A stretch of DNA of 41,967 nucleotides from Myxococcota bacterium (lineage in GTDB: Bacteria; Myxococcota_C; UBA6777): assembly GCA_023150835.1 (NCBI GenBank), contig JAKLKB010000052.1:1-41967 (forward strand). The letters are read 5' to 3'. Below, one piece after another: positions 21,866-37,185 of this stretch (its first letter is position 1; the number at the start of each line of letters is the position of its first letter). A model generated the notes under the pieces. It was given only the letters and a program-made list of their open reading frames with translations, had not been told where the DNA came from and searched no databases. The position numbers and the translations under genes were made by a program.

Positions 21866-21890
21866 GAAGATCAAGGCACCCTTGATCTTC
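21866..21890. promoter_or_regulatory. Perfect inverted repeat upstream of hemA
   Basis: GAAGATCAAGG-CAC-CCTTGATCTTC is an 11-bp perfect inverted repeat overlapping a TTGAC (21861-21865) that could be a -35 box. It lies about 130 bases before hemA in the 336-base spacer. No T-run follows, so an operator is more likely than a terminator; a 5' leader stem-loop is the alternative. Confidence 0.5.
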
Positions 21891-22022
21891 ACGCGCTAGT
21901 GTACTACTGCTGTGCGAAATCGCACGGAGGCCACAGTCCAAGAGAGACCTGCGCGACGGTTGCGCGCCCACAGGACAAAGAAAAGCCTCAAGTATGCGGA
22001 AAGGACAAGGGCGGTGAAGCGA

Positions 22023-23195
22023 ATGGAGCGGATCGCACTGATCGGCGTATCCCATCGGCGCGGTGGTATCGCGGCGTTAGAGGCATGGCATCGAGCGTGG
22101 GATGACCGTGCGCTGTCGGATATCCTTGCGTTGGGATTTCAAGAAGCTGTGAGACTTTCGACCTGCAATCGATGTGACTTGATCGTTGCGATGCCCGAAG
22201 GGATGGATATCCAAGAAGCCCGCCGCCTGTTGGCTCCTGCGGAATGGACCCGCTGTTATACCTACGAAGGTGAAGCCGCCGTTGAGCAGCTTTGTCGGAT
22301 CGCGGCATCGTTGGACTCCCTCAATCCGGGGGAAGATCAGATCATGTCACAAGTGCGAGACGCTTATACAGCCGCAGAAGGCGAAAAAACCGTCGGAAGT
22401 GAAACCAGCTTTGCCTTTTCTACAGCCTTTCGCGTCGCCAAGCGCATCCGCCGAGAGGTCGAGTTGGCCCCCGTCAAAACCTCTCTGTTTAGTCTTGCCC
22501 GCCCTGAGATGGAGCGCGACCTTCCTCTGCACGCCCAGATCGCCGTGATCGGAACAGGCAAGATGGGCCGCATCGCCGCACGCTCTCTTTGTGAACGCCC
22601 CCATACAACGCTTTATTTGATCAACCGCTCGATCGAACGCGCACAAGCTCTCGCCGAAGAACTCGATGGTGAAGCCAAGATCACGCTTTTGTCGTTGGAT
22701 GATTTTTGGATGCACCCTCCTGCTCTTGACGGTTTGGTGTGCGCGACTTCTCAGGCCGACTTGATCAACACTTCCTTTTTAAAGCGCCTGCCGAACTTGC
22801 GGGTGATCGTGGACTTGGGGATGCCACGCAACGTTGCGTTGGGAGCCGCCCAAACCCAAGGCATCAAATGCCTTGATGTGGAAACCCTCCAAGAAGCGGG
22901 GCAACGCCGCCGTCAAAAGATCGAAGCTGCCTTGCTACGGGCTGAAGAGATCTTGCTTGATGAGCTTGAGATCGCAATCAACGAGTGGATCGAGCGTCAG
23001 CTTGGGCCTTCACTTCAAGCGCTGCGCGCCCACTACATCGAGAAGATCGGCGACACTCTCCCCGAGCACGAAGCCCGACAAATGGCCAACCGCTTCGCGC
23101 ATCTGCCCATGAAAGGACTGCGTGTACTCGCCAGAGAACACGGCCTGCACGCCGCACGCACCTTCTTGTCGGTGATCGAGGCACAAGCGCGTTAA
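22023..23195 (+). CDS. hemA: Glutamyl-tRNA reductase
   Basis: This 390-residue cytoplasmic enzyme converts glutamyl-tRNA to glutamate-1-semialdehyde with NADPH, the first step of C5 tetrapyrrole synthesis. The N-terminus has IGVSHRRG, the catalytic Cys is in LSTCNR, the GEDQIMSQV motif follows, the Rossmann NADPH domain starts at IGTGKMG, and a helical dimerisation domain closes the protein. The start at 22023 matches the family N-terminus; an in-frame GTG at 21912 adds 37 atypical basic residues. Ribosome binding upstream (AAGGGCGG) is only moderate. It leads the haem gene run and is preceded by a perfect inverted repeat. Confidence 0.95.
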   Translation: MERIALIGVSHRRGGIAALEAWHRAWDDRALSDILALGFQEAVRLSTCNRCDLIVAMPEGMDIQEARRLLAPAEWTRCYTYEGEAAVEQLCRIAASLDSLNPGEDQIMSQVRDAYTAAEGEKTVGSETSFAFSTAFRVAKRIRREVELAPVKTSLFSLARPEMERDLPLHAQIAVIGTGKMGRIAARSLCERPHTTLYLINRSIERAQALAEELDGEAKITLLSLDDFWMHPPALDGLVCATSQADLINTSFLKRLPNLRVIVDLGMPRNVALGAAQTQGIKCLDVETLQEAGQRRRQKIEAALLRAEEILLDELEIAINEWIERQLGPSLQALRAHYIEKIGDTLPEHEARQMANRFAHLPMKGLRVLAREHGLHAARTFLSVIEAQAR

Positions 23196-23299: not shown

Positions 23300-24190
23300 A
23301 TGCAACACACGATACGGATCGCCACGCGCAAAAGTCGCCTCGCTTTGTGGCAAGCCGAATGGGTCCAAGCGCGCTTGCAAGAAGTCGGCATCCTCGGACA
23401 TCTGGTCCTGATCGAAACCCAAGGCGATCGGGAGATGTCCGCCTTTCGTTTGATGCAAGGCCAAGGCTTCTTTACCAAAGCCGTCCAAGATGCCGTCCTT
23501 GCGGATGAAGCCGATATCGCTGTCCACTCGCTCAAAGACCTCCCCTCCGCCCGCATGGAAGGACTCACACTTGCGGCCATCCCTTGTCGGGCGGATGTAC
23601 GCGATATGTTGCTGATGCACAACGCTGCACACGACGATACCGAAGCATGGCTCCCGCTGCGCATCGGCTCACGCATCGGAACCAGCGCAGCACGACGTCA
23701 AGCGCAGCTCCGACACCTTCGGCCCGATCTCGAAGTCGAAGAACTACGAGGCAACGTCCCCACCCGCGTCGAACGCCTACGCGAAGGCCGCTATGACGCG
23801 ATCTTGCTGGCTTGCGCAGGCGTGGAAAGACTCGAACTGGATCTCTCGGGTCTTCGAACCTTTCCACTTCCTCCCTCGCTGTTTGTTCCCGCCCCCGGCC
23901 AAGGAGCCCTCGCCATCGAATGTCGCTCCCAAGACCTAGAAACACAAAGCCTTTTGCAGACCCATCTCCACGATCCAGACGCCGCACGCACCGTCGAATT
24001 AGAGCGCTCCTTGATGGCTCAATTTGAAGGCGGATGTCAGTTGGCTCTTGGGGCCTCTGCCCGTGTTTGCCACGACCAGCAGATCGAGATGATCGCCTTT
24101 TATCAAGGACAGCACCGCACGCTCCAAGCCCCCGCACAGACCGTCGTTTCCCGCATGGTCCACGCCCTCACCCACCCCTCGCATCCATGA
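23300..24190 (+). CDS. hemC: Porphobilinogen deaminase (hydroxymethylbilane synthase)
   Basis: The 296-residue cytoplasmic enzyme polymerises four porphobilinogens into hydroxymethylbilane. It opens with IRIATRKSRLALWQAEWV, has the VHSLKDLPS and PVRRQAQL-type (TSAARRQAQL) signatures, GQGALAIECR, and the dipyrromethane-cofactor Cys246 in GGCQLALGASA. Length fits the family. Its stop codon overlaps the start of the histidine kinase gene (ATGA at 24187-24190), indicating translational coupling. hemB and hemD are not in the window. Confidence 0.95.
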   Translation: MQHTIRIATRKSRLALWQAEWVQARLQEVGILGHLVLIETQGDREMSAFRLMQGQGFFTKAVQDAVLADEADIAVHSLKDLPSARMEGLTLAAIPCRADVRDMLLMHNAAHDDTEAWLPLRIGSRIGTSAARRQAQLRHLRPDLEVEELRGNVPTRVERLREGRYDAILLACAGVERLELDLSGLRTFPLPPSLFVPAPGQGALAIECRSQDLETQSLLQTHLHDPDAARTVELERSLMAQFEGGCQLALGASARVCHDQQIEMIAFYQGQHRTLQAPAQTVVSRMVHALTHPSHP

Positions 24191-25302
24191 CGCTCCGCAA
24201 ACACCGCCCACAAACCAAGGCCGCCGTGATCTTTATGTTGGTGCTGTTTTTTCTTGGTGCGCAGGTGGTGTGGTGGCTGATCTTTTTGTCCGACCAGATC
24301 AAAAATGCCTCCGAACAGCGCATTCGTGGGTGGCTCACCGATCGCCAAACGATCCAGCGTTTGCTTGACGAATCCCCCAAGCAAAAGCGCCGATGGTTGG
24401 AGATCTGCCGTCAACACTATCCTCATCTGCACTGCTCCAGCGACGGCATCACCCTACGCCCAGAATCCTTTTGGGAGATCCGCGAACGCGGTGATCGCTC
24501 GATGCGGATGTTTCTGTTTGAAAGCGTGTTCTTTGTCTTGGTGATCGCGGGCGGACTGGTGTTGTTGGCGCAAAGTATCCGAACGGAGCGCGAGCTTCAA
24601 ACGCGCCAAAGCAACTTTCTCAGCGCAGTCAGTCACGAACTCCGCACCCCAATCAGCACGATGCGCCTCGCCTTGGAAACGCTGCAATACCGAGATATCC
24701 CCAAAGAAAAGCAAACTCATTACCTCGACCGCTTGCGCGCCAATCTGGATCGCCTCCAAGCGACCTTTGAACAAGTCCTTGCCGCTGCGATGCTCGAAGA
24801 ACACGGAAACAACAAGCGGATCGAACAGCACGATCTCGGCGCTCTTGTGGCTCGCTACATCGAGCAAAACCGAACGGATCTCGAAGAACGCGGAGGCGTG
24901 TTGTCTTGGCGATCCGCTCCCGCGCCTGTGTTTGTGCGTGTCGATCCCCTTGGGTTCGAGATTATCCTCAACAACCTGCTCAACAACGCGATCAAGCATA
25001 ACCCCCATCCCCAAAAGCATATCGCGCTTGCGGTTCATGAAATTGGCCGCTATGGTGTCTTGCAGGTCGATGACGATGGACCCGGCATCCCCGCCACAGA
25101 ACACCAGCGGATCTTTGATGCGTTTTATCGCATCGGCGACGAATTAAAACGCCAAAGCGGTGGGTTGGGACTTGGGCTTTATCTTGTCAAAAGCCTCGCA
25201 GAAAACATGGGCGGCGGTGTGTCGGTCGATGCGCTCGAACAAGGCAGTCGTTTTGAGGTGCGTCTGCCGCGTGTATCCGCCCCATCGTTCGGGATCAAGT
25301 AG
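24187..25302 (+). CDS. Sensor histidine kinase embedded in the haem operon
   Basis: This is a 371-residue inner-membrane kinase. TM1 is at about 12-34, a periplasmic sensor of about 75 residues follows, TM2 is at about 108-130, and there is no HAMP domain. HisKA phospho-acceptor H150 lies in SAVSHELRTP. The ATPase domain shows NNLLNNAIKHN (N box), DDDGPGIP (G1) and GGLGLGLYLVK (G2). The sensor carries a dense cluster C74, H77, H80, H82, C83 (CRQHYPHLHC), able to bind haem, metal or sense thiol redox state; this is inference. Start ATG overlaps the hemC stop by four bases. The response regulator gene begins two bases after its stop, so the two form a cognate pair. Confidence 0.93.
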   Translation: MTLRKHRPQTKAAVIFMLVLFFLGAQVVWWLIFLSDQIKNASEQRIRGWLTDRQTIQRLLDESPKQKRRWLEICRQHYPHLHCSSDGITLRPESFWEIRERGDRSMRMFLFESVFFVLVIAGGLVLLAQSIRTERELQTRQSNFLSAVSHELRTPISTMRLALETLQYRDIPKEKQTHYLDRLRANLDRLQATFEQVLAAAMLEEHGNNKRIEQHDLGALVARYIEQNRTDLEERGGVLSWRSAPAPVFVRVDPLGFEIILNNLLNNAIKHNPHPQKHIALAVHEIGRYGVLQVDDDGPGIPATEHQRIFDAFYRIGDELKRQSGGLGLGLYLVKSLAENMGGGVSVDALEQGSRFEVRLPRVSAPSFGIK

Positions 25303-25303
25303 A

Positions 25304-26017
25304 ATGGCAAAGCGCGTACTGGTGATCGAAGATGAACCCGATATGGCCGAACTCTTGGTCGATAACCTTGAGGCCGAAGGCTACGAAGTGACGAACGCAC
25401 GCGATGGCCACGAAGGGCTGGCCTTGTGGCGTGGCGTGGTGCCTGATCTTGTGGTGTTGGATGTGATGCTACCCCATCGAAGCGGCTACGATATCTGCCG
25501 GATATTACGCGAAGAAGGCGATCATACGCCCGTTTTGTTCCTCAGCGCCAAAGGCCACCCCGAAGCTCGCGTCCAAGGACTCGCTGTCGGTGGCGACGAC
25601 TACCTCACCAAGCCCTTCCATCTCCCCGAACTTTTGCTGCGTGTGCGCGCCCTTCTCCAACGCTCCGCATGGCCTCCCTCCACCGCCCCTTCCGAATCCT
25701 TTTCGATCGGCAAACATCAAGTCGATCAGCGCGAATGGACCGTCCGATCCGAAGACGGCAAAACCTTGTTGTTACGAGAAGAAGAGATCCGCCTGTTGCG
25801 TTTTCTTCTGGCTCACCCCAACACCACCCTCGGGCGAGACCAGCTTCTTGATGGCGTCTGGCAAGACGATATCTTCCCTTCTAGCCGCGTCTTAGAAGGT
25901 TATTTTGCGCGGCTGCGGGATATCTTTGAAGCCGACCCGCTCCATCCACGATTCTTCCATTCCCATCGAGGCTTGCGCTTTGCCTTCTATCCAAAGGGAC
26001 TCGCCAACCCATTCTAA
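25304..26017 (+). CDS. OmpR-family response regulator
   Basis: A 237-residue DNA-binding regulator. The receiver domain has the acidic pocket E9/D10, phospho-acceptor D53 (VVLDVMLP) and K103 (YLTKPF); a winged-helix Trans_reg_C domain occupies about 130-230 (LLLREEEIRLLRFLLAHPN, RVLEGYFARLRD). Its gene starts one base after the kinase stop, so it is the likely partner. The most economical target is the surrounding haem gene set, perhaps via the inverted repeat before hemA, but this is untested. A stem-loop follows before hemE. Confidence 0.94.
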   Translation: MAKRVLVIEDEPDMAELLVDNLEAEGYEVTNARDGHEGLALWRGVVPDLVVLDVMLPHRSGYDICRILREEGDHTPVLFLSAKGHPEARVQGLAVGGDDYLTKPFHLPELLLRVRALLQRSAWPPSTAPSESFSIGKHQVDQREWTVRSEDGKTLLLREEEIRLLRFLLAHPNTTLGRDQLLDGVWQDDIFPSSRVLEGYFARLRDIFEADPLHPRFFHSHRGLRFAFYPKGLANPF

Positions 26018-26108: not shown

Positions 26109-27170
26109 TTGCTTCGTACGAATCCCACTCCCCCTACTGACATCTCGGAAGCTCCGCTGTTTTTGCGTGCGCTGTGGGGCGAAGACACGCCACGCGCTCC
26201 GATCTGGATTATGCGCCAAGCCGGTCGCTATCTGCCCGAATATCGGGCGCTCAAAGAAAAATATTCTTTTTGGCAGATGTGCGAAGAACCCGACCTTGCC
26301 GCCGAAGTGACACTTCAACCCTTGGCCCGCTATCCTCTCGATGCCGCCATCGTCTTTAGCGATATCATGACGCCGTTGTCTTCGATGGGTGTGGACGTGG
26401 CCTTTCACCCCGGACCTGTGGTCGCTGCTCCCATCCGCACACCCGCCGATATCCAAGCCCTTCGCGTCCCCGCAGAAGACGAGATATCCCCTTATGTCGG
26501 CGAGGCCATCCGCATCTTACGCCGCTCCCTGCATGTACCCTTGATCGGCTTTGCAGGAGCCCCCCTCACGCTCGCAACCTACTTGATCCAAGGGCAAGGC
26601 AGCAAAGAATATCCCACCCTTCGGCAATTTCTATGGGGCGAGCCTGATCTCGCCCATGCTCTTTTAGAGAAGCTCGCCGAGATGACTGCACGTTATCTCC
26701 GTATGCAGATCAAAGCAGGAGCCCAAGCGATCCAGTTGTTCGACTCTTGGGCAGGCTTACACAGCGCCCCGATATACCGTACCTTTGGCGCTTCTTATGC
26801 AGCAAAAGTCCTCGATCGTCTGGCTGATCTTGATGTTCCGCGTATCTATATCGCCGTCGGTGCATCTCATCTCTACGAAGAGATCGCTGCCTTGCCTGTC
26901 GAGGCCGTCAGCGTAGACTGGCGGATGCCTCTTGATCTCGTCCGCCGCGCCTTGCCCGCAAAAACCCTCCAAGGCAATCTGGAACCTGCGATCTTGTTGG
27001 CTCCTCCCCAAGTCATCGAAGAACAAGCGCAAGATATCTTGCGGCGCGGTATCGGCGGAGCCCACGTCTTTAACCTCGGTCACGGGATCTTTCCCCAAAC
27101 GCCCCCCGAACATCTCGCGCACCTGATCGACGTGGTGCAACGCTTTGACCGCCACGCCCCCCATCCCTGA
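26109..27170 (+). CDS. hemE: Uroporphyrinogen decarboxylase
   Basis: The 353-residue cytoplasmic enzyme decarboxylates uroporphyrinogen III to coproporphyrinogen III. Signature RQAGRYLPEYR is at residues 36-46, the catalytic-Asp segment AAIVFSDIMT follows, and GFAGAPLTLATYLIQG and the C-terminal FNLGHGI are present. A TTG start at 26109 is chosen because a perfect AAGGAGG ends five bases before it and the reading gives the normal family length; the next in-frame ATG would remove the RQAGR signature region. The rare start could lower translation relative to its neighbours. Confidence 0.94.
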   Translation: MLRTNPTPPTDISEAPLFLRALWGEDTPRAPIWIMRQAGRYLPEYRALKEKYSFWQMCEEPDLAAEVTLQPLARYPLDAAIVFSDIMTPLSSMGVDVAFHPGPVVAAPIRTPADIQALRVPAEDEISPYVGEAIRILRRSLHVPLIGFAGAPLTLATYLIQGQGSKEYPTLRQFLWGEPDLAHALLEKLAEMTARYLRMQIKAGAQAIQLFDSWAGLHSAPIYRTFGASYAAKVLDRLADLDVPRIYIAVGASHLYEEIAALPVEAVSVDWRMPLDLVRRALPAKTLQGNLEPAILLAPPQVIEEQAQDILRRGIGGAHVFNLGHGIFPQTPPEHLAHLIDVVQRFDRHAPHP

Positions 27171-27207
27171 TCGACTCGACGCACCCACAAACCAAGGAGT
27201 TCTTGCG

Positions 27208-27711
27208 ATGTTCGCTGATGTCCTACCCACAAATCGATGGTTCGGCTTTGCCTTCCTCGCCTTTGTTGTGGGCTCGGTGCTTTGGCTCGCCACCCCACAT
27301 CAAAGCGCTGCCAAACCCACACCACCGCCCAAAACGCCCTCCAGCGGATCCTTGACGATCCTGATCCAAGGCTTGCGCAACAACGATGGCCGCGTTTCCT
27401 TGACCCTCTACAACCGCGCTGACGGATATCCCATGAAACCAAAACTCGCCTTCGCTAAACGCGAAACCTCGATCCAAAACAAACAAGTTCGCTTCGTCTT
27501 TCCTGCCCTACCCTTCGGCACTTACGCTGTGGCTGCTTACCACGACGAAAACGCCAACGGCAAACTCGACACCAATTGGATCGGTATCCCCCGCGAAGGA
27601 ACCGCCGCTTCCAACAACGCCAAAGGCTTTATGGGCCCCCCCAAATTCCGTGACGCACGCTTTGACTTCAAACAAACCCCGCTCACCGTCTCCATGAAGA
27701 TGAATTACTGA
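27208..27711 (+). CDS. DUF2141 secreted protein in haem operon
   Basis: A 167-residue protein with an N-terminal membrane/signal segment (about 11-30) and Pro-rich linker, then a DUF2141 domain: LTILIQGLRNNDGRVSLTLYN, GTYAVAAYHDENANGKLDTNWIGIP, and GFMGPPKFRDARF. These are diagnostic of the family, which is envelope-located and of unknown biochemical function. AAGGAG lies eight bases before the ATG at 27208. It sits between hemE and hemH (five bases before hemH), so it is co-transcribed with haem genes; whether it handles porphyrin or is simply a passenger is not known. Confidence 0.9.
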   Translation: MFADVLPTNRWFGFAFLAFVVGSVLWLATPHQSAAKPTPPPKTPSSGSLTILIQGLRNNDGRVSLTLYNRADGYPMKPKLAFAKRETSIQNKQVRFVFPALPFGTYAVAAYHDENANGKLDTNWIGIPREGTAASNNAKGFMGPPKFRDARFDFKQTPLTVSMKMNY

Positions 27712-27716
27712 TCCGC

Positions 27717-28829
27717 ATGACGACAAAAAAATCTCCCACAGGAATTGTTCTGCTCAACCTCGGTGGCCCCGCAACCCAAGATGAAGTTCAACCCTTTTTG
27801 ATGCGCCTGTTTGCGGATCGAGAGATCATCCAGCTTCCTTGGCAAAGCGTCTTCGGACCCTTTCTCGCCAAACGTCGCACCCCCAAAGTCCAGAAACTTT
27901 ACCAAACCATCGGTGGCGGCTCGCCGATCAAGATGTGGACGCAAAAACAAGGCGACGGAATGGTGCGTTTGCTCGACACCCTTTCGCCCGAAACCGCCCC
28001 CCACAAAGCCTACATCGCGTTTCGTTATGCCGCCCCCCTCAGCGAAGACGCCCTTCAAGCCATGCGCAATGATGGTGTCCAACGCGCCATCGCTTTTACG
28101 CAGTACCCGCACTTTTCCTGTGCCACCACAGGTTCCAGCCTCAACGAGCTATGGCGAGCGCTTGATCGTTTGGGGATGCAAGATGCGTTTGCATGGAGCG
28201 TGATCGATCGATGGCCGACCCACGCGGGTTTTATTCAGGCGATGGTCAAAAAGATCGAAGAAGGATTGGCATCTTTCCCCGAAGAAGAGCGCGAACAAGT
28301 GGTCTTGCTTTTTAGCGCACACTCTCTGCCGTTGCGGATCGTCGATCGCGGCGATCCTTATCCCGAAGAGATCGCCGAAACCATCCATCTCGTCATGCGC
28401 TCGATACAGTATCGACACCGTTATCTGCTGTCTTATCAGTCCGAAGTCGGCCCTGTCCGATGGCTTGGACCCAGTACCGAAAAGATGATCCGCGCCCTCC
28501 CCGAAAAAGGCTATCGCCATGTCCTTGTGGTTCCGATCGCTTTTACCTCCGATCACATCGAGACCTTGGTCGAGATCGATCAAGAATACGGTGAACTCGC
28601 CCACCAATGCGGGCTAACCCACTTTCACCGCGCTCCCGCACTCAACGATGACCCCCTTTTCATCGAAGCAATGGCCGATATCGTCCTCCAACATCTCCAA
28701 AAACAAGAAGTCGCCTCGCTTCAATACAGCATGCGTTGCCCCGGTTGCACCAACCCACGATGCCGACAAGTCACCCACCCATTCCAACCCTACCAAGGCA
28801 TCCCCCAACCCAAAACCCTCCCACGCTAA
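27717..28829 (+). CDS. hemH: Ferrochelatase, [2Fe-2S] and animal-like
   Basis: This 370-residue enzyme inserts Fe2+ into protoporphyrin IX to make haem. It shows LLNLGGP, GGGSPIKMWT, FSAHSLP, RGDPYP and the catalytic His280 in PIAFTSDHIETL. From about residue 60 to the end it is unusually close to human ferrochelatase, including TAPHKAYIAFRY, AIAFTQYPHFSC, TTGSSLN and IDRWPTH. The four [2Fe-2S] ligands of the animal enzyme are all present: C135 (FSCATTGS) and C341, C344, C349 in the C-terminal CPGCTNPRC. It starts five bases after the DUF2141 stop and ends the haem run; no terminator is obvious. Confidence 0.96.
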   Translation: MTTKKSPTGIVLLNLGGPATQDEVQPFLMRLFADREIIQLPWQSVFGPFLAKRRTPKVQKLYQTIGGGSPIKMWTQKQGDGMVRLLDTLSPETAPHKAYIAFRYAAPLSEDALQAMRNDGVQRAIAFTQYPHFSCATTGSSLNELWRALDRLGMQDAFAWSVIDRWPTHAGFIQAMVKKIEEGLASFPEEEREQVVLLFSAHSLPLRIVDRGDPYPEEIAETIHLVMRSIQYRHRYLLSYQSEVGPVRWLGPSTEKMIRALPEKGYRHVLVVPIAFTSDHIETLVEIDQEYGELAHQCGLTHFHRAPALNDDPLFIEAMADIVLQHLQKQEVASLQYSMRCPGCTNPRCRQVTHPFQPYQGIPQPKTLPR

Positions 28830-28850
28830 ACTCCACAGGAGGCTTTTTTG

Positions 28851-30059
28851 ATGAAACGGTTGACCGATCAAGAGTTGCTCGATCTCCTTGATGACACCGA
28901 GTCTGATCGCGCCGAGCGCAAACAATCCTTCAAAGGCGACACTCCCAGCAAAAGCAGGCAAGCCGTCTGTGCATTTGCCAACGACCTACCCAACCACAAC
29001 GAACCCGGTATCCTCTTTGTGGGCGTAAGAGACGACGGTACCCCTTCACACGAACCGATCACGGATAGGTTGTTGCAATCGTTGGCCGATATGAAAACAG
29101 ACGGCAACATCCTACCGATGCCTGTGATCTCTGTCGAAAAGCGCCTATTAAAAGGGGCCGAGATGGCTGTTGTTGTCGTCATGCCCTCCGATATGCCGCC
29201 CGTCAAGTTCGAGGGACGCATCTGGATCCGCACCGGCCCACGAAGAGCCATCGCCAACGAGCAAGAAGAACGGATCTTGATTGAAAAACGCCGTTATAAA
29301 AATCTGCCGTTTGATCTCTATCCTATCCCAACCGCCCACATCACCGATCTTTCGCGTGTGATCTTTGAAGCTGAATTTCTCCCTGCTGCGTTTGCTTCCG
29401 ATGTATTAGAAGAAAATGGTCGGAGTTACGAAGAGCGTTTGGCTTCTTGCAAGATGATCGTGTCGCCGACAGACACGACACCAACGGTTCTTGGGTTGCT
29501 TGCCTTGGGCAAGAGTCCACAAGATTTTCTGCGTGGCGCGTCTATCCAATTTCTTCGTATCGACGGAATCCATCTCGAAGATCCTGTCGTAGACGAAGAA
29601 GAGATGGGAGGTGCGGTCGTGGAGATGTTGCGTCGCGTTGAAGAGAAATTACGCGCCCACAACCGAAGCGCCGTCGATGTGACCTCCAACGCAACACACG
29701 AGATCGAGCACCCATATCCGATGGCGGCGCTTTTGCAGATCGTCTACAATGCCGTCTTTCACCGAACCTACGAGCGAACGAATGCCCCGATCCGTGTCTA
29801 TTGGTTCAATGATCGGATCGAAGTGAATAGCCCCGGTGGGCCCTACGGAAACGTCACCCCAGAAAACTTTGGTCAGCCGGGTGTCACCGATTATCGCAAT
29901 CCAAATATCGGGGATATCCTAAAGACTTTTGGCTTTATCCAAGGATTTGGTCGTGGGATCGCCATCGCCCGCAAAGAGATGCAGAAGAATGGCAACCCAC
30001 CCATCGAGTTCCAGACCAACCAAAGCCTTGTCTTGTGTACGTTAAGGAAAAAGCCTTGA
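28851..30059 (+). CDS. AlbA_2 / GHKL-ATPase-like putative transcriptional regulator
   Basis: A 402-residue cytoplasmic protein. The N-terminal half is an AlbA_2 (Schlafen AlbA_2-type) domain: ERKQSF, VCAFANDLPN, GILFVGVRDDG and GRIWIRTGPRRAIA. The C-terminal half is an HATPase_c_4 (GHKL-like) domain with QIVYNAVFHRTYERTNAPIR, DRIEVNSPGG and GFGRGI. Proteins with this pair are annotated as putative DNA-binding or ATP-dependent regulators and occur near defence genes. The ATG at 28851 has AGGAGG eight bases upstream; a TTG at 28848 is also possible. Its stop overlaps the ParA-like gene start (TTGA), so the two are translationally coupled. The function of the pair is unknown. Confidence 0.85.
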   Translation: MKRLTDQELLDLLDDTESDRAERKQSFKGDTPSKSRQAVCAFANDLPNHNEPGILFVGVRDDGTPSHEPITDRLLQSLADMKTDGNILPMPVISVEKRLLKGAEMAVVVVMPSDMPPVKFEGRIWIRTGPRRAIANEQEERILIEKRRYKNLPFDLYPIPTAHITDLSRVIFEAEFLPAAFASDVLEENGRSYEERLASCKMIVSPTDTTPTVLGLLALGKSPQDFLRGASIQFLRIDGIHLEDPVVDEEEMGGAVVEMLRRVEEKLRAHNRSAVDVTSNATHEIEHPYPMAALLQIVYNAVFHRTYERTNAPIRVYWFNDRIEVNSPGGPYGNVTPENFGQPGVTDYRNPNIGDILKTFGFIQGFGRGIAIARKEMQKNGNPPIEFQTNQSLVLCTLRKKP

Positions 30060-31084
30060 GCGAAAAACCACCCGTCTTAACCTTTTTCAATAACAAAGGA
30101 GGCGTGGGGAAAACCTTGCTGCTCTATCACCTTGCTTGGATGTACGCGAGCCTACACAAGCGAGTTCTGGCAGTCGATCTTGATCCACAATCGAACCTCA
30201 CGGCGTTGTTCCTCAAAGAAGACGCCATCGAAGAGCTTTGGGAGGGAGGGCAAGCAGGGGCAACCGTCTTTCGTGCGATCGAGCCGCTTATGGGGGGGGG
30301 AGGTATCGTTTCGCCTGTGGTGCAAAAGATCACTCCTTCTCTTTATCTCTTGCCCGGCGATGTTGCGCTTTCAAGGTTTGAAGAAACGCTCTCCTCTGCG
30401 TGGCCTGATAGCATGGGTGATCAGAATCTCTATCGCCCGATGCGAGCGCTTTCGGCGTTTTGGCAAGTGATACAGAGCGGGGCAAAGCAGATCGCCGCCG
30501 ATATCGTCTTGGTGGATGTCGGCCCCAATCTGGGGGCGATCAACCGATGCGCTTTGATCGCAACGGACTTTGTGCTCCTTCCTTTGGGGGCGGACTTGTT
30601 TTCCCTTCAAGCTCTGAAAAACCTTGGCCCAACCCTTCGGACATGGCGAAGCCTTTGGCACAAACGCCGCGAAAACTGGTCATCTCGTTCAGAAGCTGCT
30701 CAACATCCAGAGATGGAACTCCCCCAAGGATCGATGCAGGTCGTGGGGTATGTTTGCCAGCAGTACGGGATCCGTTTGGAACGTCCCGTGGTGGCCTACG
30801 AAAAGTGGGCCAATCGTATCCCCGACGCCTACCGAGAAACGGTTCTCGATCAAGAGGCGATCCACGGTCTCCACCCACCCGATGATCCCGAATGTCTCGC
30901 TGTCGTGAAACATTATCGCAGCCTCGTTTCGATGGGCCAAGAACACCACAAACCCATCTTTTCACTCACTTCGGCAGATGGGGCCATCGGCTCCCACGCA
31001 AATGCCGTTCAAAGCGCGAAACACGACTTCAAAGAGTTGGCCCGCAAGATCGCCAACAAGATATCTCTGCCGATGGCCAAATAA
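30056..31084 (+). CDS. ParA/MinD-type ATPase coupled to the AlbA_2 protein
   Basis: A 342-residue ParA-superfamily ATPase. Deviant Walker A NNKGGVGKT is at about residues 15-23, VDLDPQSNLT follows (switch region), and the Walker B-like segment ILVDVGPNLGAINR is near 150. There is no ParB gene next to it. The protein is longer than a minimal ParA, with a C-terminal helical extension. A TTG start at 30056 overlaps the upstream stop (TTGA) and has AAGGA seven bases upstream. The stop codon is overlapped by a family A repeat. Possible roles are positioning or an ATP-dependent partner of the AlbA_2/GHKL protein, possibly in defence; both are inference. Confidence 0.88.
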   Translation: MSEKPPVLTFFNNKGGVGKTLLLYHLAWMYASLHKRVLAVDLDPQSNLTALFLKEDAIEELWEGGQAGATVFRAIEPLMGGGGIVSPVVQKITPSLYLLPGDVALSRFEETLSSAWPDSMGDQNLYRPMRALSAFWQVIQSGAKQIAADIVLVDVGPNLGAINRCALIATDFVLLPLGADLFSLQALKNLGPTLRTWRSLWHKRRENWSSRSEAAQHPEMELPQGSMQVVGYVCQQYGIRLERPVVAYEKWANRIPDAYRETVLDQEAIHGLHPPDDPECLAVVKHYRSLVSMGQEHHKPIFSLTSADGAIGSHANAVQSAKHDFKELARKIANKISLPMAK

Positions 31085-32299: not shown

Positions 32300-32456
32300 A
32301 TGTAGGGGCAGCCCCGTGGCTGCCCAAGAATAGGGCGTCTACGCATCGCAGATGCGGTATCATACGAAAACCGCGTATTGCGTGATCGGATGATGTAGGG
32401 GCGGTTCGCGAACCGCCCGTCTTTCGGGATGATCACACAACAGGCAGATGTCGTAT
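32300..32456. repeat. Family A pieces with perfect palindrome core
   Basis: The first part (about 32300-32340) is a family A core with GTAGGGGCAGCCCC. From 32361 a second element reads ATACGAAAACCGC, then a distinct core, and ends GGCAGATGTCGTAT at about 32455, so the family A ends flank a different centre. That centre, GGGCGGTTCGCGAACCGCCC (32399-32418), is a perfect 20-bp palindrome. Confidence 0.75.
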
Positions 32457-32460
32457 GGGG

Positions 32461-32592
32461 GGCAGCCACAGGGGTTGCGATAGACACGGGGTCATTGTTG
32501 TGTCAAACGCACGTGCGTTGGGCAGCCACAGGGGTTGCGACAGACACGGGGTCATTGTTGTGTCAAACGCACGTGCGTTGGGCAGCCACAGG
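32461..32592. repeat. 60-bp tandem duplication
   Basis: Two copies (32461-32520 and 32521-32580) start GGCAGCCACAGGGGTTGCGA and end CACGTGCGTTG, differing at one base. A third copy starts at 32581 and changes after 12 bases into a family A core (GGGGGCTGCCCCTAC). CACGTG in each unit is a palindrome. Confidence 0.9.
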
Positions 32593-32709
32593 GGGCTGCC
32601 CCTACAGGGACGGGGTCATGATGGCATCCCATACCGCGCATCATCCGTTGTTTTCGTAGGAGCAGGGCTTGCCCCTGCCCAATACACCACGGTCTGTTCT
32701 GCCACGTTT

Positions 32710-32785
32710 GTTGGGGCAAACGTCCGTCGTTGGGGCAAACGTCCGTCGTTCGGGCAAACGTCCGTCGTTCGGGCAAACGTCCGTC
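32710..32785. repeat. 19-bp tandem array upstream of helicase gene
   Basis: Four exact or near-exact 19-bp units, GTTSGGGCAAACGTCCGTC, begin at 32710, 32729, 32748 and 32767; the first two have GTTGGG and the last two GTTCGG. The array lies about 140-210 bases before the helicase start and may affect its promoter spacing. Confidence 0.92.
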
Positions 32786-32922
32786 GTTCGAACATTGGCC
32801 TTTTTTGTACCCAGCGTCGAGTCCGAAGGGGGGAAGTTGAAAGCCCTCTTGCGAGAAGAATCTTTCTTGCTACACTCGGAGATATTGGAAAAGAAAACGT
32901 TGGTGAACCTGAGGACGGACAG

Positions 32923-35900
32923 ATGGAACGAACGGACTGGAGTGATTGCGAGATCTTATTTCCGCTGTTGGGTGATGCGAAGAACCAGATACGCTTGACG
33001 CTGCGATCACACAGACGGCTTTCTCAGACCCCGCTGTTTTTCCAAGAACCTCCTCCGCAAGCGTGGGCCTTTCCTGCGGCGCTTTTTTCTTTGGACAGAC
33101 AAGAGCAGCAGAGCCTTGGGCTGGACGAGTTGGCACAACGGGCCGAACAGCGTTTTGGTGTAAAGGTGGCTTGTGTTTCGCTGCGCGTTTGTTTGACAGG
33201 ACAGGCAGAGCGTTTGGGGGGATGGGTACAGGGGCTCTCTCTTGGCCAAGCCGATGTACTTTGTACGGAGCTTGGCTTGGAAGGGGGATGGTATCTGACA
33301 GAGAGCGAAGAGGCGCATCGGTTGGGGAGTGGGGAGGACGTGCTGTTTGTCCATGCGTTGCCGCGCATCGTGTTAGACCCCGAAGAGCGGATCGCAGACA
33401 ACACCGATCCCGAAAAGAGCATGGATCGGCTGCTTGAGCGGTTTTTGATGCAGTTCACCGATCTAGCCGATCAAGCGATGCCGTATGTCGCGATCGCCAC
33501 GGGGTATCTCTACAAAAAAGGTTTGGTGTACTTGCTGCGGTTGTTGGAAAACCAGCACATCCGAAAGCTGCGGTTGTTGTTTAGCGGGCGGGCAGATCGT
33601 GCAACAGCGGATCTTTTGGAACAAGTCTTTCTCTCTGAACTCGATCAACGGGGGCAATCCAGCGATGCCGATCTGCTGTATCAGGCCGTTGAAGAAGAGC
33701 GGTTGGCGATCCGCGTGTATCCGCACGCCTTTTTGCACGCAAAGCTTTATCTCGGTTGGCGATTGATCGACCGACAAGGTTTTCCACAAGGGGCGATGAT
33801 CCTTGGAAGCTCCAACGTGACGGGGCCGGGCTTGCTTCATCATGGGAATCTGGAATTAAATGCGTATGTGGATGACCGCCACACTTTGCGCTCGGTCATG
33901 GGGTGGTTTGAGGCGCGTTGGGAAGAAGCCGAAGAACCCAATGCGCTGTTGTTGCAAGCCCTTGAAAGCCGTCGAGAGATCGCCCCGCCCCCTGCTTTTG
34001 AGATCGAGGGTTTGCGTGAGGTGTGGGAGGCGGGTCGCTTGCGGAAGTTGGAACCTGCTGCGCGTTATCTGGACTTTTTGGCGCGACTGTACCGCCAACG
34101 GATCGATGTCACCCGCGTCGATATCAACGAACCCGCGTTCCCCCCAGACGATCTGCGCCGTATGCTCCCCGCCCCCGAACAAGAAAGCGGTGTGTTGGCC
34201 CTTGCACAGCGTTTGTTGCAACTACGCTTTGCGTTTTTGGCGGATAGTGTGGGGTTGGGTAAAACGGTCACTTCGCTTGGTGTGGCGTGGTATCTCTATC
34301 GACTCCAAGAGATACAAAAGGCGGTTGTGATCGCACCGCGTAAGCTTTTTGGGCAATGGGAGTCTGACCGCAAAGGCATCCGTATGCCCGAAGGCATCGT
34401 CTCTTACGAAAATCGTCATATCTTGGAACGCAAGGATGAAGCCGAGGCACTGCGGGTGCTTGCACCTTTCGATCTCTTGATCGTCGAAGAAGCCCACGAG
34501 ATCTTGCGTTCGCGCAAGAATAAGCTGTGGTCGTACCTGCGGGCGCATCTGCAAAAATATCCCAAGGCGCGGCTTTTGCTTGTGAGTGCAACACCTTGGA
34601 ACAATACCCGCGAAGATATCTTTAATTATATCTTGTTGGCTTGGCACGATGGGCGCTTGCTTTGGGAGTCGTACCCACTTTTGGGATTGCCTCCCACCCG
34701 TAAACATGTCGAATACTTTGTTGGCAAACCCGCTACCGCCGCCAAGACCTTTCTTGAGCTGGCGCGCAACGAATACCGCACGATCTTTGGTGAGACCTTT
34801 GTGCAGCGCACACGCCATCGCATTGCGCGGCTTTATCAACGACAGATCGATTTTCCCACCCGCAATGTTATCCCTTATTCGTTGCCTTCGAGTACACAAC
34901 ACGACGCCTTTTTTGGCGCTCTTGAGCGCGCTTTGGAACAGGCGTTTTTGTCGTATCGTGAGCCCTTTCGGGCGCTTCAACGTGCCGTCGTCGCCGTCCA
35001 TCCCCATCCTCCCCAAGAACTCACCGAGATCCCGATCTCCAACCTCCACCGCTCCTTTGTGATCCAGCTTTACAAGCGGGCGGAAAGCTCTTTCTTTGCG
35101 CTGGCGGTCTCTTTGCGCAACGTCCGTAGCCGCCTCATCACGTTTGAGAAAGAGTTGGTGGAGATCGCTTATACTTCCAAGACGCCACGCGATGACCTCA
35201 AGGCATGGATGGAAAAACAATATCTGCGCTTGAACCTGCTTGCGATAGAGGTGGAGGATATCGAAGAAGTCGACGAAGACTTGATGACCCCCGCTGAAAA
35301 GGCCCGTTATGGCAATCTACATGCGTTGTTTGCACAGCTTGATGACGATAGCGTAAAAGCCGCCGTCAAGCACTTGATCGAATGCGAGGTCGCACCCGAT
35401 CAAGCCCTGTTCTCCGCATTGCAAAAGCAGATCACCCTTCCTATCGAGATCCATTCTCCCAAAGGATTGTATGTGGCCGACCTGCTGCATCTTCACCACC
35501 AAAAACAACGCAAGTTTGTCTTGGTGGCGGGTTATACTGATACCGCAGTGATCAACTTTTTGCGCGCCATCGAAACCATCCCGAAAGCCCGTATCGGCCT
35601 TGCCATCGGTGGGAATGAGGCTTGGATCTATGATCCGCAAACGCATCGACCCAAGCCATTGAGCGAAAACGAATGGGAGTCCGCTCTTTCACTACCCACC
35701 AAAGAGCGTTACGCCAAGCTGCTTGTACAAGCGGGGCGCGCAAAAACAATCGAACGCTCGCGGCTTTTGCAAGCCTTTGCTCCCAAAGCCCAACGCCTCC
35801 CCGCCGCTGAACTCGCAAGTCTGGGCGGAGAAGTCGACGTCTTGGTCGGGTCGGAAGCCATCAGTGTTGGGCAGAACTTGCAAGATGCCACGTCGTTGTT

Positions 35901-37185
35901 TCAGTTGGATATGCCTTGGAACCCAATGGTGATCGAACAGCGGATCGGGCGGATTGATCGGCGAGGTGGCGGTCGTCTCAAAGATCCAGATGATCCACAC
36001 TCCCCAAAAATCGTGGATATCTTCTATTGTTGGAGCCAAAGCGCCATCGAAAACGAGATCACTCTGCGCGATAAACTCAAAACAAAAGCCGAAGCCGCCA
36101 TCCAAGACACCCACTTTGACGAACTGTTGCTTTACGAATTGCGCGATCTGATCGAAGAGATCCGCCAAAAGACAGGCGACTTCCCCGAAGATGGCGAGTA
36201 CAAGGAACAGTTGGCCGCTTTCTTCAAACAACGCCAAGAAGAATTGCTCGAAAAGCAAACCCTCCCCGAAGAGATCAGCGAACAAGCGGGTGCTTGGATG
36301 GAAGGGGTTCGCCACCTCGCAGTCTGGACAGAAACCCAACGCCTCGATCTCACGATCCCGCCGCAACCTGTAGTCGCTTGTGGCTATGCTGAGGCTTCTT
36401 CATCGGGCAGTTGGAAGATCACACTTGAACTCCAACCCTACGATGAGCGCGGTCAACGCTTGGGCTTGCCGATCTTTGAAAGCCTCTCCATCCCCGCAGA
36501 TATCCAACTCCCGCTCGAACAGGATCTGGAGGCCGTCGTGTTGTCGCTCCTCGATGGACAACAACGCCAAGCCCACCGCACCGCACCACCGCTCTCTGCC
36601 AAAGCATGGCGACTCTCCCTCGAAGCCCTTCAACAACGCCTCCGTGCTTTCCAACAAAGCTATCTCGACCAACACAACGAGCAGATCCGACAAAAGGCCG
36701 TTGCCCTCAATCAACAAAAGCGAACCAGCCCCACCGCCGCTTTTCGTTTGCTCTGCGGTAAAGCTCTCACCGCCGTCCAAAACGAGATCAAGAACAACCC
36801 CTTTTACAAGACATCCGAAGGGCGCGAACACATCCAATCCATCGGCGAAAAACTCAAGTTTTTCTTGACCCTGCTCACTCCCCCAGAAAACCACCGCGTC
36901 CTTCAAGATGCCGACGAGCGCGAGATCGAAAGCGCACTGCAATTTGTCTCTCTCCAACCAAGGCGCTTTTTGCGAGAGGACTTTGAAACCTTCTTTCTGG
37001 CGGTTGCCGGCCCTGCGTGGAGTGAAGACCTCGACCAGAAAAAGGGTCTCACTCCCTCCAACGCACAGCTTGAACTTGTGCAAGTCTCCTCAGACTTCGA
37101 TTCCACCCGCTCCATCGAACGCGCCGCCGAAGGCCGCTGGACAACCCTCTCGATCAAAGTCGTCGCGGCTGCTTTCCTCGCATGA
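32923..37185 (+). CDS. PLD-nuclease/SNF2-like helicase fusion, putative defence effector
   Basis: A 1,420-residue cytoplasmic protein. After an unrecognised N-terminal 150 residues comes a PLD (HKD) nuclease domain, about 170-320, with H272, K274 (HAKLYLG) and GSSN with N298. A superfamily 2 helicase follows: Walker A SVGLGKT with K447, a DEAH-like EEAH at 522-525, SATPW, then the C-terminal motor with SVGQNL and QRIGRIDRRG (arginine fingers near R1010/R1013). A charged helical C-terminal 380 residues has no recognised domain. The architecture suggests an ATP-dependent DNA translocase coupled to a PLD nuclease, comparable with DISARM DrmD plus DrmC in one chain. Start ATG follows GAGGA by seven bases. 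The methyltransferase gene begins 61 bases after the stop. Confidence 0.85.
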   Translation: MERTDWSDCEILFPLLGDAKNQIRLTLRSHRRLSQTPLFFQEPPPQAWAFPAALFSLDRQEQQSLGLDELAQRAEQRFGVKVACVSLRVCLTGQAERLGGWVQGLSLGQADVLCTELGLEGGWYLTESEEAHRLGSGEDVLFVHALPRIVLDPEERIADNTDPEKSMDRLLERFLMQFTDLADQAMPYVAIATGYLYKKGLVYLLRLLENQHIRKLRLLFSGRADRATADLLEQVFLSELDQRGQSSDADLLYQAVEEERLAIRVYPHAFLHAKLYLGWRLIDRQGFPQGAMILGSSNVTGPGLLHHGNLELNAYVDDRHTLRSVMGWFEARWEEAEEPNALLLQALESRREIAPPPAFEIEGLREVWEAGRLRKLEPAARYLDFLARLYRQRIDVTRVDINEPAFPPDDLRRMLPAPEQESGVLALAQRLLQLRFAFLADSVGLGKTVTSLGVAWYLYRLQEIQKAVVIAPRKLFGQWESDRKGIRMPEGIVSYENRHILERKDEAEALRVLAPFDLLIVEEAHEILRSRKNKLWSYLRAHLQKYPKARLLLVSATPWNNTREDIFNYILLAWHDGRLLWESYPLLGLPPTRKHVEYFVGKPATAAKTFLELARNEYRTIFGETFVQRTRHRIARLYQRQIDFPTRNVIPYSLPSSTQHDAFFGALERALEQAFLSYREPFRALQRAVVAVHPHPPQELTEIPISNLHRSFVIQLYKRAESSFFALAVSLRNVRSRLITFEKELVEIAYTSKTPRDDLKAWMEKQYLRLNLLAIEVEDIEEVDEDLMTPAEKARYGNLHALFAQLDDDSVKAAVKHLIECEVAPDQALFSALQKQITLPIEIHSPKGLYVADLLHLHHQKQRKFVLVAGYTDTAVINFLRAIETIPKARIGLAIGGNEAWIYDPQTHRPKPLSENEWESALSLPTKERYAKLLVQAGRAKTIERSRLLQAFAPKAQRLPAAELASLGGEVDVLVGSEAISVGQNLQDATSLFQLDMPWNPMVIEQRIGRIDRRGGGRLKDPDDPHSPKIVDIFYCWSQSAIENEITLRDKLKTKAEAAIQDTHFDELLLYELRDLIEEIRQKTGDFPEDGEYKEQLAAFFKQRQEELLEKQTLPEEISEQAGAWMEGVRHLAVWTETQRLDLTIPPQPVVACGYAEASSSGSWKITLELQPYDERGQRLGLPIFESLSIPADIQLPLEQDLEAVVLSLLDGQQRQAHRTAPPLSAKAWRLSLEALQQRLRAFQQSYLDQHNEQIRQKAVALNQQKRTSPTAAFRLLCGKALTAVQNEIKNNPFYKTSEGREHIQSIGEKLKFFLTLLTPPENHRVLQDADEREIESALQFVSLQPRRFLREDFETFFLAVAGPAWSEDLDQKKGLTPSNAQLELVQVSSDFDSTRSIERAAEGRWTTLSIKVVAAAFLA

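Follow-up and report, generated by a model that had tools for sequence, protein, structure and literature searches.

The window analysed here, a 41,967-nucleotide stretch of DNA, belongs to contig C213 of a draft genome of 7.56 Mb (G000) and contains a haem biosynthesis operon on the plus strand with the gene order hemA-hemC-kinase-regulator-hemE-DUF2141-hemH, as assigned from domain and TIGRFAM matches. The first gene, hemA (22023-23195), codes for a glutamyl-tRNA reductase with GlutR_N and Shikimate_DH domains and matches the TIGR01035 family below its curated cut-off, followed by hemC (23300-24190), a hydroxymethylbilane synthase gene scoring 271.6 bits with TIGR00212 against a cut-off of 164. 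A HemK-like sensor histidine kinase of 371 amino acids (24187-25302; HisKA and HATPase_c domains, with orthologues and tree placement supporting the assignment) and a HemR-like OmpR/PhoB-type response regulator of 237 amino acids (25304-26017; Response_reg and Trans_reg_C) come next. The 3' end of hemC and the start of the kinase gene share an ATGA at 24187-24190, so that coordinates and sequence both agree with the preliminary description of a two-component pair tightly coupled between hemC and hemE, and the pair is presumably co-transcribed with the haem genes. The uroporphyrinogen decarboxylase gene hemE (26112-27170, TTG start) and the ferrochelatase gene hemH (27717-28829) score above the TIGR01464 and TIGR00109 cut-offs respectively, and between them lies a gene for a DUF2141 protein (27145-27711; PF09912) that overlaps the end of hemE.

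Directly downstream of hemH are two overlapping genes, one of the AlbA_2/HATPase_c_4 type and one for a ParA-like ATPase (28848-31084), and a 1576-aa open frame at 32455-37185 contains the 16-base sequence TGACACAACAATGACC twice on the minus strand, 60 bases apart, probably as coding repeats. A hemD domain is found away from the operon (L130, G000:C40:24116-24814) in a 725-codon open frame, and is possibly part of a fusion.

Inspection of the kinase sequence indicates two N-terminal membrane segments. The first (approximately residues 12-34; 24220-24288, plus strand) ends in the signature AQVVWW, in which W29 and W30 are invariant in our kinase alignment (A1), and the second (24508-24576, plus strand) is associated with the signature R-x(3)-M-F-x-x-E-x-x-F, whose residues R104, M108, F109, E112 and F116 occupy invariant columns just ahead of and within the segment. 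Between the two hydrophobic segments lies a predicted periplasmic loop of about 73 residues (approximately residues 35-107; 24289-24507, plus strand), and all five residues of the Cys/His cluster to which attention had been drawn earlier are present in it, as C74-R-Q-H77-Y-P-H80-L-H82-C83 (24406-24435, plus strand). The predicted phospho-acceptors are H150 in the kinase, with T154 at the H+4 position (H150-E-L-R-T154), and D53 in the regulator, which is invariant in the regulator alignment (A2).

The window's phylum is represented in our sample by five genomes from three genera. The full hemA-hemC-HK-RR-hemE order is also present in G004 and G003, whose kinases are 46% and 37% identical to that of the window, and the sister species G001 (kinase 95% identical) has hemC-HK-RR-hemE-DUF2141-hemH on a contig that ends before hemA; its hemA is found on a separate contig, with upstream neighbours that match those in the window. 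The fifth genome, G002, was left out of the synteny count because its contig ends inside hemC. The order is thus found in all three genera, and its recurrence shows that it is neither a chance arrangement nor an assembly oddity. The closest named record to the kinase is from 'Myxococcota bacterium KLAP109', at 95% identity.

To collect the kinase family we searched 336 genomes with a profile built from seven kinases. The family recovered keeps the WW pair at the end of the first membrane segment, with W29 and W30 present in every member extracted, together with the signature before and in the second segment, and conservation in the sensor part of the kinase is concentrated in these segments. 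Outside the window's phylum the kinase adjoins hem genes in G308, G159, G211, G070, G300, G114 and G066; separate phyla are established only for the window's genome, G308 and G114, with G211 and G070 belonging to one family. The arrangement is therefore not new, since members of the kinase family adjoin hem genes in two or more further phyla. Not every member is dedicated to haem: a search for four hem genes in the flanking sequence gave none for eight of them (in G029, G057, G055, G328, G197, G331, G200 and G207), with about 7-10 kb on each side covered for most and the G200 kinase situated at a contig edge.

The closest counterparts are found in the phylum of G308, where an orthologue with E ≤ 1e-66 is present in 54 of 111 genomes and the kinase, regulator and hemE are contiguous in 27 of the 30 loci fetched. 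In the kinase tree the sequences of the window's phylum group together with a support of 0.997 and join those of this second phylum with 0.995. In both groups the orthologous kinase and regulator genes stand immediately before hemE, and the loop length and a PHL motif are shared, but the second phylum lacks the Cys pair and differs in both the recognition helix of its regulator and the sequence before hemA (see below). The full order in G308 is hemA-hemC-hemD-hemB-HK-RR-hemE-hemQ-hemH-hemG, with hemD and hemB between hemC and the kinase gene, whereas hemD is not in the operon in the window's phylum. Between hemE and hemH the second phylum has a gene of the chlorite-dismutase family (HemQ-like; L079, 5429-6211), at the position where the window has its DUF2141 gene; the window's operon contains no HemQ-like gene.

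These comparisons bear on one alternative, that a generic PhoR/PhoB-type or heavy-metal pair has been placed by chance between hem genes. The best general models for the two proteins are indeed PhoR/PnpS and PhoB, but all of these scores fall far below the curated cut-offs, synteny and the operator described below are conserved in other groups, and of 15 family members five have hemC within 15 kb of the kinase gene, while 71 generic kinases include no such case (Fisher p = 9e-5). A chance insertion is thus disfavoured and, in our judgement, very improbable.

Among known two-component systems, HssRS, HrrSA and ChrSA of Gram-positive bacteria are similar in controlling haem homeostasis, but they are linked to genes for haem export or degradation and are not known to lie inside a biosynthesis operon. 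AlgZR of Pseudomonas aeruginosa resembles the window's pair in that two-component genes are joined to hemC, with the order algZ-algR-hemC-hemD; however, AlgR is of the LytTR type and its partner AlgZ belongs to a different kinase class, whereas the window regulator is of the Trans_reg_C type. Co-transcription of algZR with hemC/hemCD has been reported (PMC5790918).

The closer parallel is the Leptospira system Hklep/Rrlep, described by Louvel et al. in 2008, whose genes in L. interrogans are flanked by hemE and hemL within a hem operon (PMC2266917); the preliminary statement that no standard hem operon has such an arrangement was therefore mistaken. Linkage of such a pair to hem genes has also been stated for Bdellovibrio bacteriovorus, and the L. 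biflexa mutants of the same study required hemin or ALA (PMC2266917). Imelio et al. (2024) use the name HemKR, show that the phosphatase activity of HemK is triggered by ALA and that HemKR activates hemA and represses hmuO in L. biflexa, and report a double mutant that is still able to make haem (PMC11426443). Tuning of haem synthesis by the Leptospira system thus has experimental support (PMC2266917, PMC11426443). The window's pair shares with it a HisKA/HATPase_c kinase with two membrane segments, the first ending in WW and the second starting with FF (F116 in the window kinase family), a Thr at the +4 position from the phospho-His for phosphatase activity, an OmpR/PhoB-type regulator with D53, and linkage to hem genes. 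Translation of the published Hklep primers gives VWWWILG and FFLSMLT, which flank the replaced Hklep loop and fit the family signatures of the two segments, and the gene order in G114 is close to that published for L. interrogans. There are also differences: the loop of about 73 residues with its Cys pair compares with one of 32 residues in L. biflexa HemK, the phospho-His is at position 150 rather than 98, and the window has a changed recognition helix and lacks the Leptospira operator at hemA. A search for a Leptospira hem locus through hemE in plasmid records gave none among the matches listed. The window's pair is not filed as a full member of HemKR because the operator feature failed and because Leptospira was compared through printed primers and published descriptions.

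The HemR operator, TGACA[N6]TGACA (PMC11426443), hereafter the hem-box, is present in exact form about 50 bp before the hemA start codon in the second phylum, as in G308, which has TGACAGTTTTGTGACA at -53 relative to hemA. Exact hem-boxes also precede hemC in G159, hemA in G300 and both hemA and hemE in G114, and boxes with one mismatch precede hemL in G211 and hemC in G070; for comparison, at least nine of ten matches occur by chance in about 1.8% of shuffled upstream regions. In the window's phylum there is no hem-box upstream of hemA, the best matches of six to eight of ten positions being the same as in shuffled sequences. A scan of the whole window found three one-mismatch matches, none of them near hemA, and fewer matches than in shuffles.

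Loss of the hem-box coincides with a change in the regulator. Comparison across loci and in alignment A2 places the recognition helix region of the window regulator, PSSRVLEGYFARLR, at 25877-25918 on the plus strand, and the RT(V/I)DN motif seen at this position in relatives with a hem-box has been lost in the window's phylum. The altered motifs are RVLEG in the window species, RILES in G001 and RAIER in G004 and G003, and an independent change to RTLER has occurred within the second phylum in G415 (L155/L109), which also has no hem-box at hemA. Across 23 loci the box is present in 18 of 18 with an RT(V/I)DN helix and in none of five with a changed helix (Fisher p = 3e-5, a value that overstates independence as the loci are related). 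Because the changed helix and the missing box go together, the window regulator probably recognises a sequence other than the hem-box, through which it would act on its own hem operon.

A candidate control element upstream of hemA is a perfect 25-bp dyad, GAAGATCAAGG-CAC-CCTTGATCTTC, at 21866-21890, which occurs as a single copy in the genome and is identical in G001. A second perfect dyad, GTGCGA-AA-TCGCAC, is present at 21912-21925 in the same upstream block; both are within sequence identical in the sister species, with the sequence further upstream having diverged. A TGCGC[N6]TGCGC sequence at -73 was considered as an operator and ruled out as it is degraded in the sister species. A de novo search for a pentamer repeat shared upstream of hemA in the three genera gave nothing above shuffled sequences, and the hemA leader has no match in Rfam.

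The absence of the hem-box and the altered recognition helix in the window's phylum would also fit a pair that owes its place in the hem operon to co-expression alone and acts on other genes, such as those for the envelope or respiration, the lost box then reflecting release from hem regulation; the family members without linkage to the hem genes searched for point in the same direction. However, three genera have kept the linkage to hemC and hemE even though the box was lost, and such linkage would not easily persist without a functional tie; we consider this explanation unlikely. The earlier proposal that the regulator tunes haem synthesis is very probably correct, given the hem-linked orthologues with a HemR operator before hemA and the analogy with Leptospira HemKR.

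It is the other part of that proposal, that the Cys/His cluster senses haem, iron or copper, or redox state, that is not supported. Lack of conservation of the cluster in orthologues had been named as a refuting outcome, and the histidines vary within the phylum: H77 and H82 are restricted to the genus of the window, H80 belongs to the wider PHL motif, and the corresponding regions read CKKEHPHLTC in G004 and CERYYRGFEC in G003. The C-x8-C pair is confined to the phylum: four of four kinases there have it, and it is missing from all 41 orthologous or related family sequences from elsewhere, among which L056 and L079 represent a single locus. At the positions of C74 and C83 the second phylum has mainly hydrophobic residues (L and V in G308), consistent with a disulfide having taken the place of a packing contact. 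An AlphaFold run on two sequences gave a mean pLDDT of 44 (60-73 for the loop alone), and because of these low values the model was not used for fold searches; in this weak model residues 64-77 form a helix and residues 81-84 and 87-90 form strands.

That the cluster is nonetheless the true sensor, either with the loop binding haem or metal or with C74-C83 acting as a thiol redox switch, coupling haem synthesis to an extracytoplasmic signal, draws some support from the fact that the four kinases of the phylum all retain both cysteines although their identity falls to 37%, and from the weak model, where C74 is part of a helix and C83 of a strand close by. Against it are the loss of the histidines in G003, the absence of both cysteines from the 41 other sequences, even from the nearest orthologues outside the phylum, which share the operon position, and the G066 kinase, which adjoins hemE yet has almost no periplasmic loop, its membrane segments being only a few residues apart. 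Moreover, an L. biflexa kinase with residues 31-62 swapped for a linker still restored growth, and one with the membrane segments removed did not (PMC2266917), although this growth assay reports kinase function rather than switching, and the loop may still have a role in shutdown. A sensory role for the cluster is thus quite improbable. From the sequences compared, the cluster is a local decoration and does not qualify as a general sensor of haem or metal, and C74 and C83 probably form a structural disulfide.

Taken together, orthology, gene linkage and the kinase signatures lead us to interpret the pair as a HemKR-type system, with a membrane kinase and an OmpR/PhoB-type regulator within the hem operon that adjust transcription of the hemA operon to the status of the haem pathway, a reading to which we assign a probability of roughly 80%. 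In such a system haem-pathway status would be sensed in or beside the membrane segments of the kinase and not by the Cys/His cluster, and by analogy with L. biflexa, pathway intermediates such as ALA may switch the kinase towards phosphatase activity. A more elaborate version, which we regard as speculative and rather doubtful, is that HemKR is old and widespread with a constant operator, and that in the window's phylum the helix and operator were rewired jointly while the kinase gained a disulfide adding an envelope redox input.

HemKR is treated as a peculiarity of Leptospira in the literature we found, but the kinase family, its linkage to hem genes and the exact operator are present here in several other groups, and the gene order in the window's phylum is kept across three genera. 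These genomes provide a wide natural data set for the HemK signal and for joint change of a regulator and its DNA site. The window's phylum and G415 are the exceptions that make the link between helix and operator testable, with G415 a natural test case for regulator-operator change, and within the kinase the membrane segments, rather than the Cys/His loop, become the focus of interest.
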